NCBI GenBank assembly: GCA_020860885.1
Contig: JAJBTS010000238.1
Span: 1-5,283 of the forward strand
Length of the DNA stretch: 5,283 nucleotides
From: Bacteroidales bacterium
GTDB taxonomy: Bacteria > Bacteroidota > Bacteroidia > Bacteroidales > Azobacteroidaceae
Direction: 5' to 3'
A model generated the notes under the pieces. That model was not told the DNA's origin, made no database searches, and was given only the letters and a program-made list of their open reading frames with translations. The position numbers were made by a program, and so were the translations under genes. Of the stretch, positions 106 to 5,071 are shown in pieces. Numbering within the stretch: the first letter of the stretch is position 1; each line of letters opens with the position of its first letter.

Positions 106-1575
106 TTGAAAAAAATAGCAATCATAGGATCCGGATTCTCCAGTCTGTCTGCCGCTTGTTATATGGCTCAGGCAGGATATCATGTAACGGTTCTGGAGAA
201 AAACAAGACTATCGGGGGACGGGCACGACAATTCGAAAGAAACGGCTTTAAGTTTGACATGGGGCCTACTTTCTATTGGATGCCGGATATTTTTGAAAAA
301 TTCTTTAAGGATTTCGAAAAGACTCCGGAAGATTTTTATTCCTTATCCCGATTGGATCCCGGTTATGAAATATATTTCGATCAGGGAACCCGTATCAAAC
401 AATCTTCCGATCTTTCTAAACTGAAGGAAACATTCGAATCGATCGAGCCTGGAAGCAAAGAATTCCTTGATAAGTTTCTTCGTAAAGCAGAATACAATTA
501 CAGGGTAGCAATCGATAAAGTTGTATACAAACCGGGGAAGTCTTTATTGGAACTTATTATGCCGGAAACGGTAAGTCGTGCGCCGCAATTTCTTACCAGC
601 CTGAGTTATACAGTCCGCAAAAACATTCAAGACCAAAAATTAAGACAAATGCTTGAATTCCCTGTTTTATTTCTCGGTGCGAAACCCGACAAAACGCCTT
701 CTTTTTATCGTTTTATGAACTATGCAGATATGGTTTTGGGTTCGTGGCATGTGGAGGGAGGAATGATAGAAGTAATATACGGGATGAAAAGACTGGCAGA
801 AACCTTAGGAGTTGAAATAAAAACCAAACAGACTGTAAACGAAATCGTCGTAGAGCGCAATAAAGTAAAAGGGATTGTTGTCAACGGAAATTTTATAAAT
901 ACAGACGCGGTTTTATCCGGTGCAGATTACCACCACACCGAAACGTTACTGCCGGAAAAATACCGCAATTATTCTGAAAGGTATTGGAACCGGAAAGTTT
1001 TTGCTCCTTCGGCAATACTTTTTTATATAGGATTTGATAAAAAAATCCAGAACGTTTCGCATCATACGCTTTTCTTCGATACTTCTTTTGAAGAACATGC
1101 CTCCAATATATACGATGCTCCGGACTGGCCGGAAAAACCGTTGTTTTATGCCAGTTTTCCTTCAAAAACAGACGAAAGTCTATGTCCCGACGGAAAAGAG
1201 GGCGCAATTATATTGATACCTTCGGCTGCCGGTTTAGCCGACCATCCGTATGTAAGGGAAAAATATTTTGAACAGGTTATAGAGCGTATGGAGAAATTAA
1301 CGAATCAGAAACTAAGAAATCATGTTTTATTTTATGAGTCTTATGCGTATTCAGATTTTATGAAAGATTACAACGCATACAAAGGAAACGCTTACGGATT
1401 AGCTAATATTCTAACTCAAACGGCTTTCCTGAAACCCAAGGTGTTCAACAAAAAACTAACTAATCTGTTTTATACAGGTCAATTGACCGTTCCGGGGCCG
1501 GGGGTTCCTACGGCAATTATATCCGGCAAAATAGCCGCCGATTGTGCTAAATCTTATATGAAACATCTATCCTAA
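106..1575 (+). CDS. crtI: Phytoene desaturase (CrtI family)
   Basis: This is an FAD-dependent carotenoid desaturase of 489 residues, a normal length for the family. It is expected to convert phytoene stepwise to lycopene (or a less desaturated intermediate) at the membrane surface. The N-terminal dinucleotide fold is clear: KKIAIIGSGFSSL at residues 2-14, the FAD ribose-binding acid E31, and GGRAR at 37-41. The C-terminal family signature GQLTVPGPGVP lies at 458-468, followed by ISGKIAAD at 472-479. The usual third glycine of GxGxxG is a serine (S13), a variant I associate with CrtI of Bacteroidota. The start is TTG at 106: a TAA at 91-93 is in frame upstream, no ATG or GTG lies between, and a later start would remove the FAD motif. 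No Shine-Dalgarno sequence is visible. crtB follows after 12 bases. Family assignment is firm; the exact number of desaturation steps is not visible from sequence. Confidence 0.95.
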   Translation: MKKIAIIGSGFSSLSAACYMAQAGYHVTVLEKNKTIGGRARQFERNGFKFDMGPTFYWMPDIFEKFFKDFEKTPEDFYSLSRLDPGYEIYFDQGTRIKQSSDLSKLKETFESIEPGSKEFLDKFLRKAEYNYRVAIDKVVYKPGKSLLELIMPETVSRAPQFLTSLSYTVRKNIQDQKLRQMLEFPVLFLGAKPDKTPSFYRFMNYADMVLGSWHVEGGMIEVIYGMKRLAETLGVEIKTKQTVNEIVVERNKVKGIVVNGNFINTDAVLSGADYHHTETLLPEKYRNYSERYWNRKVFAPSAILFYIGFDKKIQNVSHHTLFFDTSFEEHASNIYDAPDWPEKPLFYASFPSKTDESLCPDGKEGAIILIPSAAGLADHPYVREKYFEQVIERMEKLTNQKLRNHVLFYESYAYSDFMKDYNAYKGNAYGLANILTQTAFLKPKVFNKKLTNLFYTGQLTVPGPGVPTAIISGKIAADCAKSYMKHLS

Positions 1576-1587
1576 AATTTATATAGA

Positions 1588-2418
1588 ATGGACGAGCTTT
1601 ATAGTAAGATTTGTTTCGAAACCAGTAAAATAATAACCTCCCGTTACAGTACTTCTTTTTCTGTGGGAGTCAGATGCCTCAGCCCGGAAATACGCAATGC
1701 CATATACGGGGTGTACGGATTTGTCCGTGTCGCCGATGAGATCGTAGATACCTTTCACGAATACGACAAAGAGCTTTTGCTGGATGAATTCGAATCCGAA
1801 TATTATCGTTCGCTGGAAAGAGGGATAAGTACCAATCCGGTAATCAACTCATTCCAGGCAATCGTCAGAAAATATCAAATAGAGGATCATCTGGTTCAAT
1901 CTTTTCTGAAGAGCATGAGAATGGACATCAGTCATACTCTTTATTCGGAAGAAGAAATAAAAGAATACATATACGGTTCTGCGGAAGTAGTAGGATTGAT
2001 CTGCCTTACGATATTCGTTAATGGGGATAAAGAAGAATACGAACGGCTTAAACCCTCTGCCAAACGGTTGGGAGCCGCGTTTCAAAAAATTAATTTTTTA
2101 CGCGACCTGAAAAACGACAGTATGAATCTACATCGTATCTATTTTCCGGTACTGAAAAGCGAACCGCTTACCGAAGCAACAAAAAGAGTTATTCTTAAGG
2201 ATATATACGATGATTACAGGGAAGCCAGAATAGGTATCCGCCAATTACCGGAATGTGCCCGCCTCGGTGTATACACAGCGTACTTATATTATCTGTCCCT
2301 GACCAAAGCTATCGAAAATACTCCGGCTGAAGTACTTCAGGATGAAAGAATAAGAATATCAAACGTACAGAAAGCCCGATTACTTATAAAAGCTTTCCTT
2401 ACTCAAAAATTTATTTGA
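1588..2418 (+). CDS. crtB: Phytoene synthase
   Basis: This 276-residue protein is a trans-isoprenyl diphosphate synthase of the squalene/phytoene synthase family. It condenses two geranylgeranyl diphosphates head to head, via prephytoene diphosphate, to phytoene. Both Mg-diphosphate-binding aspartate motifs are present: DEIVD at residues 50-54 and NFLRDLKND at 169-177. The substrate-pocket segment YSTSF is at 20-24, and YGSAEVVGL at 129-137 stands where many homologues have a Y..VAG.VG pattern. The length is typical for the compact bacterial enzyme, with no fused cyclase domain. The ATG at 1588 is 12 bases after crtI and no better upstream start exists. The C-terminus runs directly into idi, implying coupled translation. 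Squalene-type synthases (HpnC, HpnD) share this fold, but the position next to crtI and the rest of the operon makes CrtB the clear choice. Confidence 0.95.
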   Translation: MDELYSKICFETSKIITSRYSTSFSVGVRCLSPEIRNAIYGVYGFVRVADEIVDTFHEYDKELLLDEFESEYYRSLERGISTNPVINSFQAIVRKYQIEDHLVQSFLKSMRMDISHTLYSEEEIKEYIYGSAEVVGLICLTIFVNGDKEEYERLKPSAKRLGAAFQKINFLRDLKNDSMNLHRIYFPVLKSEPLTEATKRVILKDIYDDYREARIGIRQLPECARLGVYTAYLYYLSLTKAIENTPAEVLQDERIRISNVQKARLLIKAFLTQKFI

Positions 2419-2420
2419 AA

Positions 2421-2927
2421 ATGGTAATACTTGTTGATGAATACGACAATCCATTAGGAACAATGCCCAAAATGGAAGCTCATAAAAAAGGGCTTTTACA
2501 CAGAGCTTTCTCTGTCCTTATATTCAATACCGAAGGAGAAATGCTGTTGCAAAGACGTGCCTTCGATAAATATCATTCGGGAGGACTATGGACAAATACT
2601 TGTTGCAGCCATCCGGCTCCAGGGATAGAAATCGCTGATGCTGCAGTCAAACGACTTCAGGAAGAAATGGGTATCCGTGCTGAAATATATCCAATTACAA
2701 GCTTTATCTATCAGGCACATCTGGATCATGGTTTACAGGAACACGAATTAGACCATGTGTATGTCGGAGTTTCCGATGAAGTACCAGAACCGAACCCGGA
2801 AGAAGTTTGTGAATACAAATATTTATCCGTAAAAAAGATCCGTACAAACATTCTGGAAAACCCGGATTCTTATACGGAATGGTTTAAGATCATACTGGAT
2901 AAACTGGAAGAACAAAAAGAGAAATAG
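2421..2927 (+). CDS. idi: Isopentenyl-diphosphate delta-isomerase, type I (Nudix fold)
   Basis: This 168-residue enzyme interconverts IPP and DMAPP, supplying the allylic primer for GGPP synthesis. Key residues match the E. coli enzyme. Metal-ligand histidines are H21, H27 and H64; the catalytic cysteine is C62 in WTNTCCSHP (57-65); the metal-binding glutamates are E107 and E109 in QEHEL (106-110). A Nudix-like helix RLQEEMGI sits at 78-85, and YTEWF lies near the C-terminus. The ATG at 2421 is chosen, two bases after the crtB stop. A TTG at 2415, overlapping that stop as TTGA, would add two residues and is a real alternative. The gene ends with tandem stops TAG TGA (2925-2930), and the second stop overlaps the crtD ATG. 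Its place between crtB and crtD suggests the operon brings its own precursor-balancing step so that pigment synthesis draws more on the isoprenoid pool. Confidence 0.95.
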   Translation: MVILVDEYDNPLGTMPKMEAHKKGLLHRAFSVLIFNTEGEMLLQRRAFDKYHSGGLWTNTCCSHPAPGIEIADAAVKRLQEEMGIRAEIYPITSFIYQAHLDHGLQEHELDHVYVGVSDEVPEPNPEEVCEYKYLSVKKIRTNILENPDSYTEWFKIILDKLEEQKEK

Positions 2928-2929
2928 TG

Positions 2930-4409
2930 ATGAGTCAAACAAAAAAAAATAGCTATCATAGGTTCCGGAATCGGAGGACTTGCAACGTCCTTAAGGCTCG
3001 CTGCAATGGGTCATCAGGTCACGGTATTTGAAAAAAACAAAATTCCAGGAGGTAAAATATCAGAATTACGGATGGGAGATTACCGTTTTGATACGGGCCC
3101 TTCCCTTTTTACTCTCCCTGAACTGAGCGCCGAACTGTTTCATATCTGCGGTGAAAATATAAACGATCATCTTCCGGCTGTGCGTTTGGAAACAAATTGT
3201 AAATATTTTTTCCCGGATTCCACGACTCTGACTTTCTATCATGATAAAGAAAAATTAGCTCAGGAGCTCAGGAAAAACAATATAGAGGAAGAATCTTCTC
3301 TTTTTAAGAGATTAACGAAATCAAAAGAAGTGTATGAAGTAAGCGCTCCGGTTTTCATATTTACCGCTTTCCATAAACTTTCCAATTTTAATACTCCTCC
3401 TTATAAAAAAATCCTCGGTAAAATTTTCGAACTGGATTTCTTACGTACCATGCATGCTGCAAACAGCCGGGATTTCAAAGACCATCGTATCGTCCAAATC
3501 TTTGACAGATACGCTACATACAACGGATCCAATCCATATAAGGCTCCGGCTACATTTAATATGATTGCCCATCTGGAAAACAATATAGGGGCATTCTTTC
3601 CTGAAAAAGGAATGTACTCGATAGTCTCCGAACTATACAAACTTGCAGTAAGAAAAAAAGTTCAGTTCCGGTTTTCGGAAAAAGTAGAGGAGATCATGGT
3701 ATCTGATAATAAAGCTATCGGACTCAAAACCTCTGACCGGCAAGAGCTTTACGATTTGATTGTTTCCGATGTGGACGTCCGATATCTTTCAGACAAACTC
3801 ATAAAAAAACATCCATGGAGAAAACTGTTAAAGTGGTCTCAGCCTTCGTCCTCCGCTCTTATCTTTTACTGGTCTGTCAGTAAAGAATTCCCAAAATTAG
3901 ATTTACATAATATACTGTTTTCGAAAGATTATGAAGCAGAGTTCAAAAACCTGTTCAAAGAAAAAACAATTTCCAACGATCCTACTATTTACATTTTTAT
4001 CAGTTCAAAGATTGTTTCCGATGATGCTCCGGAAGGCTGCAGCAATTGGTTCGTAATGGTGAATGCTCCATCCGATCAAGGGCAAGACTGGAACAAACTG
4101 ATTAAAGATACCCGAAGAAATATCATCGATAAGATAAACTCTACTTTAAGTATGGATATAGAAAAATATATTATCAATGAGAAAATTAATTCACCACTCA
4201 CGATAAAAGAAAATACAATGAGTGCTTTTGGAGCCCTTTACGGAGCATCTTCCAACTCAAAGTTCTCTGCATTTCTACGTCATCCGAACTTTCTTAATAG
4301 TATTAAGAATCTTTATTTTGTAGGGGGCAGTGTTCATCCTGGCGGCGGGATACCTCTTTGCCTGGCAAGTGCTAAAATAGTGTGTGAAGAAATCAATACA
4401 AACAAATGA
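2930..4409 (+). CDS. crtD: CrtD-like carotenoid 3,4-desaturase, with an apparent frameshift at its start
   Basis: This is a second FAD-dependent CrtI-family desaturase. Beside cruF, the likely role is forming the C-3,4 double bond next to a 1-hydroxyl end group. ATG 2930 reads MSQTKK and then meets a run of nine A's (2941-2949), after which the conserved protein continues in the +1 frame. As written, the ATG frame stops at TGA 3029-3031 after 33 codons. The long frame has TGA at 2931 and no ATG, GTG or TTG until ATG 3006. Starting at 3006 would delete the FAD fold IAIIGSGIGGL, which is intact in DNA at 2949-2981. With eight A's the protein would be 492 residues: GSGIGG at 11-16, E34, PGGK at 39-42 and NLYFVGGSVHPGGGIP at 460-475. 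The GGSVHPGGGIP end differs from the GQLTVPGPGVP of crtI and suits CrtD-type enzymes. It ends in an ATGA overlap with cruF. The family is certain, the CrtD subtype is likely, and whether the gene is expressed intact is open. Confidence 0.85.
2941..2949 (+). other. A9 homopolymer tract at the crtD start, site of the frame mismatch
   Basis: Nine consecutive A's follow MSQ-ACA in the 5' end of crtD. The reading frame set by ATG 2930 and the frame of the conserved desaturase differ by one base exactly across this tract; eight A's would join them. The matching site in crtI has only seven A's (109-115) and is in frame. A runs of this length are known sites for replication slippage, RNA polymerase slippage and sequencing error. 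Confidence 0.85.
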
Positions 4410-5071
4410 GTACAAAAGAAAAAATACTAAGTTACGAAACACGGATACCTTCTTTATTCATCCGCTTCTATCTGGTGGGGTTGGTTCTTTATATGATTCC
4501 CTTTACCCGTAACTTTTTTATTTCCATAACTTCTTTATCCCTACTGTTCGTTATTTCAATCGTATTTTTATTCCATAAAGATTGGAACATCAAATCCATC
4601 GTCTGGTTTCTTTTCATTGTCTGTTCCTCTTTCTTTCTGGAAATGGCAGGAATCCAAAGCGGTAAGATTTTCGGAGAATACAGCTACGACCGCGGACTGG
4701 CTCCTTTAATTAATGGTACTCCATTGATAATCGGTTTCAACTGGTTGTTCCTAGTATATGCCTCTCAAAGTATCGTGCAGAAAGTGAACCGGCTCAATCC
4801 TCTTACACGGATACTCTCAGCCAGTTTATTAATGATCCTATACGATATTCTCCTGGAATGGGTAGCTCCTTTTATGAGAATGTGGCATTTCGAATCGGGT
4901 TTTGCCCCTTTTCAGAATTTTCTTGTCTGGTTTATAGCCTCCCTTATTTACCATGCCGGATTTGAGATACTGCATATCAAAGCGAAGAATCTTCCCGCTC
5001 GTTCTCTTTTTGTCTTTCAGATGATATTTTTTCTGGTAATAGGAATTTATTCCCAACTCTTTATTCTATGA
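4406..5071 (+). CDS. cruF: Carotenoid 1,2-hydratase, CruF type (DUF422 membrane protein)
   Basis: This 221-residue, highly hydrophobic protein has about seven predicted membrane spans, roughly at residues 20-34, 37-56, 64-82, 100-120, 136-155, 172-190 and 200-219. It matches the CruF/DUF422 family, which adds water to the terminal 1,2 double bond of acyclic or monocyclic carotenoids to give a tertiary hydroxyl, without oxygen. Family-like motifs are E79 and G82, FGEYSYDRG (89-97), NGTPLIIGFNW (103-113), D147 with E151 and AP (154-155), W160, and P168/N171/W175 in PFQNFLVW. The ATG overlaps the crtD stop as ATGA (4406-4409), and its own stop overlaps the next ATG in the same way (5068-5071), so translation is probably coupled on both sides. 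It is unrelated in sequence style to CrtC hydratases. The likely substrate is lycopene or a cyclised derivative; which one cannot be told here. Confidence 0.85.
   Translation: MSTKEKILSYETRIPSLFIRFYLVGLVLYMIPFTRNFFISITSLSLLFVISIVFLFHKDWNIKSIVWFLFIVCSSFFLEMAGIQSGKIFGEYSYDRGLAPLINGTPLIIGFNWLFLVYASQSIVQKVNRLNPLTRILSASLLMILYDILLEWVAPFMRMWHFESGFAPFQNFLVWFIASLIYHAGFEILHIKAKNLPARSLFVFQMIFFLVIGIYSQLFIL

Follow-up and report, generated by a model that had tools for sequence, protein, structure and literature searches.

Frame breaks at runs of A or T are not peculiar to crtD in this assembly, and this is the main new finding of our analysis. The conserved crtD gene is separated from its only credible start by a run of nine A's. 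This amounts to an indel in run length within a gene that is sound elsewhere, like many others in the assembly, and gives no evidence for a programmed device. Our leading, though tentative, explanation is that slippage recently added one base to the run (A8 to A9), a mutation which would leave the desaturase almost unmade, with no programmed frameshift involved.

The reading frame of crtD and its relatives

The window is one entire contig of 5,283 bases from a draft genome of 438 contigs (3.0 Mb, ~38% GC). It carries, throughout on the + strand, crtI, crtB, idi, crtD, a cruF-like gene and the start of another open reading frame (ORF), and the gene order crtI-crtB-idi-crtD-cruF is kept in seven related loci (L033-L038, L043). 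The crtI ORF (106..1575) has a TTG start and matches NF058655, the bifunctional phytoene desaturase/3,4-desaturase CrtID, with 692.6 bits (cut-off 640), while idi (2421..2927, stop TAG 2925-2927), coding for isopentenyl-diphosphate Delta-isomerase, matches NF002995 with 163.8 bits (cut-off 127). Two ORFs were assigned from matches under the family cut-offs: the crtB-like gene of the phytoene/squalene synthase family (1588..2418; best family match TIGR03465, 107.4 bits) and the cruF-like gene (4406..5071; TIGR03460, 48.3 bits), whose start overlaps the crtD stop in ATGA. The idea that the contig is a stray from another organism finds no support in composition: its tetranucleotide distance ranks 36 of 77 pieces; its GC content is 0.387 versus a mean of 0.377 for the metagenome-assembled genome (MAG).

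As the earlier note had stated, the A9 run at 2941..2949, where the frame is lost, lies between ATG 2930 and the rest of the conserved frame of CrtD (2949-4406). The ORF starting at ATG 2930 (2930..3031, +) reads MSQTKKNSYHRFRN... and ends after 33 codons at TGA 3029-3031, off the conserved frame. The frame bearing IAIIGSGIGGLATSLRLAAMGHQVTVFEKN is open from ATA 2949 to 4406, that is, for 486 codons, and is closed by TGA 4407-4409. Upstream of 2949 this frame contains, as claimed, TGA 2931-2933 followed only by GTC AAA CAA AAA AAA. Its first ATG, GTG or TTG is indeed ATG 3006, and the resulting ORF of 467 amino acids (3006..4409), which is identical to protein entry P0001, is devoid of the GSGIGG dinucleotide-binding motif. 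With one A fewer the product would have 492 residues; 486 plus 6 agrees with the figure given before.

The conserved frame (2949..4409 including the stop) scores 541.8 bits with NF042421 (1-hydroxycarotenoid 3,4-desaturase, CrtD), above the cut-off of 500. An intact N-terminal dinucleotide-binding fold was nevertheless not found in any translatable ORF, because the frame of the fold has no ATG, GTG or TTG ahead of it and the ORF from ATG 3006 does not include it. Loss of one base or gain of two, at the DNA or the RNA level, would repair the frame, as would a +1 ribosomal step. The -1 frame at the run reads ESNKKK and then stops immediately; it therefore does not lead into the downstream product, which excludes rescue by -1 ribosomal frameshifting and recoding of the E. 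coli dnaX type. The A9 run itself is not rare, as exact A9/T9 runs were found 48 times in the assembly. The unusual feature is its position at the beginning of a conserved gene, where it breaks the frame. The starts of crtI (109-138) and crtD (2943-2972) have in common a 30-base stretch of 90% identity, which takes in the poly-A run and the dinucleotide-binding motif; crtI maintains its frame across its own A7 from the TTG start.

When 393 genomes of the order were searched by protein, 37 had a match at E <= 1e-140, this genome included, and in 29 of the other 36 the start was inspected and found in frame (29/29). In a first set of related loci, 35/35 have an in-frame start, 2 to 9 codons upstream of the first residue of the query frame. 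Six loci of the two sets have the same DNA, so that the 64 start regions represent 58 distinct loci, and an in-frame start was present in the DNA of all 58. Behind an in-frame Met, the fold is found in 119 of the best 120 listed homologues (7,999 scored); the remaining one is P0001, the 467-residue form as encoded by the window, an entry made up of two member sequences, one of which was examined. The nearest other homologue among those listed is 72% identical. No close DNA was found in the 37 other genomes of the genus. On the other side of the stray-contig question, a protein search of 33 same-genus genomes yielded no close CrtD (best E 1.7e-8 at 26% identity), and the carotenoid cluster may accordingly represent a recent gain or uneven loss within the genus. 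Two same-genus genomes, G003 (1.2 Mb, 5 contigs) and G022 (1.0 Mb, 7 contigs), have the look of reduced symbionts, perhaps 'Candidatus Azobacteroides'.

These comparisons bear on three readings of the run. Programmed transcriptional slippage would show as an arrangement conserved among homologues, and this was seen in 0 of the 58 distinct loci; no observation speaks for a programmed or conserved role of the A9, which is unlikely. Phase variation, in which the run would switch between A8 (on) and A9 (off) within the population, has a poly-A precedent in p78 of Mycoplasma fermentans (cited in the available part of PMC3711429). However, a start A run of at least 7 occurs in only 4 of the 35 related loci (7 or 8 A's, frame intact in all four), and our search for literature joining carotenoid genes with homopolymer phase variation found none, so we regard such switching as very unlikely. 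Finally, nothing would be broken if translation began at the rare start codon AUA 2949. The GSGIGG motif would then be retained, and some relatives do begin just two codons upstream of the same point, but an in-frame ATG, GTG or TTG is present in 64/64 start regions and initiation at AUA is very weak in bacteria, which makes this the least probable of all the readings considered.

The earlier note had also argued against an old pseudogene from the open, conserved frame, and that argument holds, since the codon-position pattern of crtD matches that of its intact neighbour crtI. Compared with five relatives of 62-64% protein identity and a sixth of 54%, crtD is 30-40% identical at third and 73-82% at second codon positions; the corresponding values for crtI against three relatives are 38-41% and 77-81%. 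As dS is saturated, no ratio is given. Since crtD shows no sign of decay, its break is either of recent date, or apparent and not real, or tolerated.

Frame breaks at A/T runs across the assembly

We scanned the 82 readable contigs (586,635 bases, window included), having dropped 39 contigs that read as N; of the 81 scanned contigs other than the window, 36 had been picked for holding an A9. Judged by eye, 13 in-gene frame breaks in 12 genes were found at 458 A/T runs of at least 7. The same inspection of 91 control loci (496,037 bases) from other Bacteroidales and the same genus, most of them centred on intact matches, which favours the controls, gave a single in-gene break at 457 such runs (Fisher p = 0.0017; p = 0.003 without crtD). 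When only exact A9/T9 runs were considered, the difference (6/45 vs 0/19) was not significant (p = 0.17). Eight of the 13 breaks have one base too many and five have one too few; RsmD, FKBP and a DbpA-like helicase are hit though conserved in other respects.

Besides crtD, the breaks affect a helix-hairpin-helix protein near its start (T9, L113), a PspC protein (A9, L115), a reverse transcriptase with RVT_1 in its last piece and two breaks, at an A9 and an A8 (L116:2696-3869, - strand), a BY-kinase (T9, L188), a DbpA-like helicase (A9, L194), an alkaline phosphatase (T7, L213), a DcaP-like porin (T7, L197), RsmD and FKBP (each A7, both on L192), an unassigned gene (A7, L122) and a DUF3686 ATPase (A7, L106). 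In the BY-kinase, the helicase, RsmD, FKBP and the alkaline phosphatase, both sides of the break match consecutive parts of the same curated family. The remaining breaks are based on reading the translations together with partial family matches, which the L122 gene and one side of the porin do not have. The sole in-gene run break counted in the controls lies at an A7 run of a Tannerellaceae MAG (L035:6983, +); no other control candidate was counted, and all judgements on inclusion were made by eye.

Several frame switches were left out of the 13. Those on L134, L182, L117, L198 and L175, at 5083 of L103, at 453 of L115, on L131 and at 1025 of L105 were taken as natural gene junctions or as too short for a judgement, on L144 the break lies away from the run, and L118 was considered uncertain, with a radical SAM match on one side only. 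Candidates of the start-type list (L110, L114, L162, L155, L111 and the start of L106) are contig ends or show no evident break.

An automatic test, requiring a coding frame on both sides of a position, pointed in the same direction. The rate of frame switches was 1.07% at random positions (54/5,070) and 1-2% at A/T runs 3 to 6 bases long, compared with 9/136 for runs of 7, 3/26 for 8 and 2/9 for 9. Runs of at least 7 thus differed from random positions (14/171 vs 54/5,070, p = 2.4e-8), some of these switches being natural gene junctions. Against the controls, whose 113 runs may include overlaps between control sets, the contrast was weaker than by eye, with 9/171 vs 1/113 for in-gene breaks (p = 0.055) and 14/171 vs 4/113 for all switches (p = 0.14).

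First counts, with many A9 and almost no A10 or longer runs, had raised the suspicion of a homopolymer "cap" artefact. This was rejected because most of the contigs in those counts (36 of 40) had been picked for A9, and the 41 readable contigs outside them show a normal decay, with A/T runs of 7 to 11 numbering 121, 29, 3, 0 and 1. General pseudogene decay in the assembly was likewise discarded. Stop codons lying in frame between two coding stretches, with no start codon 12 codons or fewer away, occurred at 3/372 coding ends versus 1/226 in the controls, whose ends include mutually overlapping loci, and so were not clearly raised. At L199:2944 (+), an in-frame TGA lies in an apparent channel gene, presumably of the MscS type (STKM*NYDNRLITFPNYK), which may be a nonsense change or another small error.

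Mutation or read error

Since similar A/T-run breaks occur elsewhere in the assembly, the A9 break is probably ordinary and involves no special genetic device. An error or a single-base change, which the earlier note had put forward as the simplest account, is favoured by the absence of the break from all 58 distinct loci and by the excess of run breaks (13/458 vs 1/457). A real recent slippage mutation is likely slightly ahead of a read error. It would be an ordinary homopolymer indel, in which slippage recently turned A8 into A9 within crtD and the extra A would be present in the DNA of the cells and not only in the reads. The CrtD carotenoid desaturase would then be left almost unmade. The 467-residue form from ATG 3006 would be inactive, as the dinucleotide-binding motif is missing, and some CrtD of full length might yet come from a minor share of slipped transcripts. 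Because crtI scores as the bifunctional CrtID, this gene may make the loss less severe. The genes broken at runs look dispensable, which we counted in favour of a real mutation.

The serious competitor, which we hold to be nearly as likely, is a sequence error, that is, a run which is in frame in the cells and was miscounted by the reads or the consensus. Breaks linked to runs are in excess in this assembly, comprise gains as well as losses and hit constrained genes such as FKBP and RsmD; a homopolymer-prone platform would produce a rise that sets in at run length 7 in constrained genes. FKBP, which we counted in favour of a real mutation, shows the event clearly: the run is an A7 here and an A6 in the relative G025, and the protein is 82-88% identical before and after it, with substitutions concentrated at third positions and the rest of the gene conserved; no near-identical intact copy was present among the best 120 listed matches, the best being 90% identical. 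For the helicase, no match at E <= 1e-60 was found in 37 other genomes of the genus. Loss of mismatch repair was examined and rejected, since MutS (an open frame of 876 codons) and MutL (625 codons) score higher than the cut-offs of their families and have no inner stops. With both genes intact, no cause of a raised slippage rate was found, and this too speaks for an error.

On the other hand, a short-read consensus rarely miscounts an A9. Furthermore, the same 467-residue CrtD is present in a protein collection, where its longest contig has 4,903 bases, compared with 5,283 for the MAG contig. The broken helicase, too, recurs there together with its out-of-frame tail, on a contig of 1,995 bases, compared with 5,673 in the MAG. 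Since the broken CrtD and helicase recur on contigs of other lengths, at least the slip of a single assembler is unlikely, although a read-level error may be common to both sources. In favour of an error, a survey of frame transitions expects, in the part of it available, that singletons with homologue support are mostly sequencing errors (PMC3711429). Our search for literature joining homopolymer indel errors, frameshifts and pseudogenes in metagenome-assembled genomes found none.

Taken alone, crtD carries little weight, being a broken or miscounted run in a single draft assembly. More can be drawn from the excess across the assembly, which implies that ORF breaks at A/T runs in this assembly should not be taken individually as biology, and the 13 break sites form a set for telling apart read error, real decay and correction at the transcript level.

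Comparison with known systems

A leaky rescue of crtD by RNA polymerase slippage would be possible. Its nearest precedent is a class of partly functional genes in which eight A's became nine, named "pseudo pseudogenes" by Baranov et al. 2005 (PMC1088944, as far as its available text goes). According to this reading, the A9 would be real in the DNA and slippage would give enough A8 transcripts for a useful amount of CrtD. The gene fits the description in being otherwise intact, with one base in an A run, 486 open codons and codon-position constraint, and it is not decaying. In the accessible portions of the literature, slippage occurs readily at A9 runs in many bacteria, and genes of the 8A-to-9A type are described (PMC1088944), with 30% full-length transcripts cited for such genes by the Blochmannia paper (PMC3017870). 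Against it, no relative examined keeps the arrangement, rescue by deletion slippage of E. coli RNA polymerase was undetectable on the poly(A) runs tried (PMC6260861, available part), and in genome-wide RNA data from Buchnera run deletions were rare, with no frame restored in the portion of that report available (PMC5574713). We therefore hold a useful rescue of crtD to be improbable. A broader version, with an RNA polymerase slipping often on runs of 7 to 9 so that crtD, the helicase, FKBP, RsmD and others are partly corrected in RNA, would mean endosymbiont-like transcript correction in a 3 Mb genome, and we judge it quite improbable.

As described in the available text of PMC1088944, pseudo pseudogenes resemble crtD in that an in-frame run of eight A's became nine in a gene otherwise intact, and in that they were seen in single isolates and not across homologues. 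In contrast to them, no strain with a shorter run was found for crtD, the nearest listed homologue being 72% identical, and the crtD run lies at the sixth codon, with a template frame of just 33 codons. The dnaX gene of Thermus thermophilus also has nine A's in its sense strand, but there, according to the same partial source, the template frame gives full-length tau and slippage adds a shorter product, whereas the template frame of crtD leads to a dead 33-codon ORF. Blochmannia, in the part of PMC3017870 available, is like this assembly in having several otherwise intact genes with one poly-A/poly-T indel; its genomes are very AT-rich and reduced, whereas the genome studied here is of 3.0 Mb and ~38% GC and shows breaks from runs of 7 upwards.
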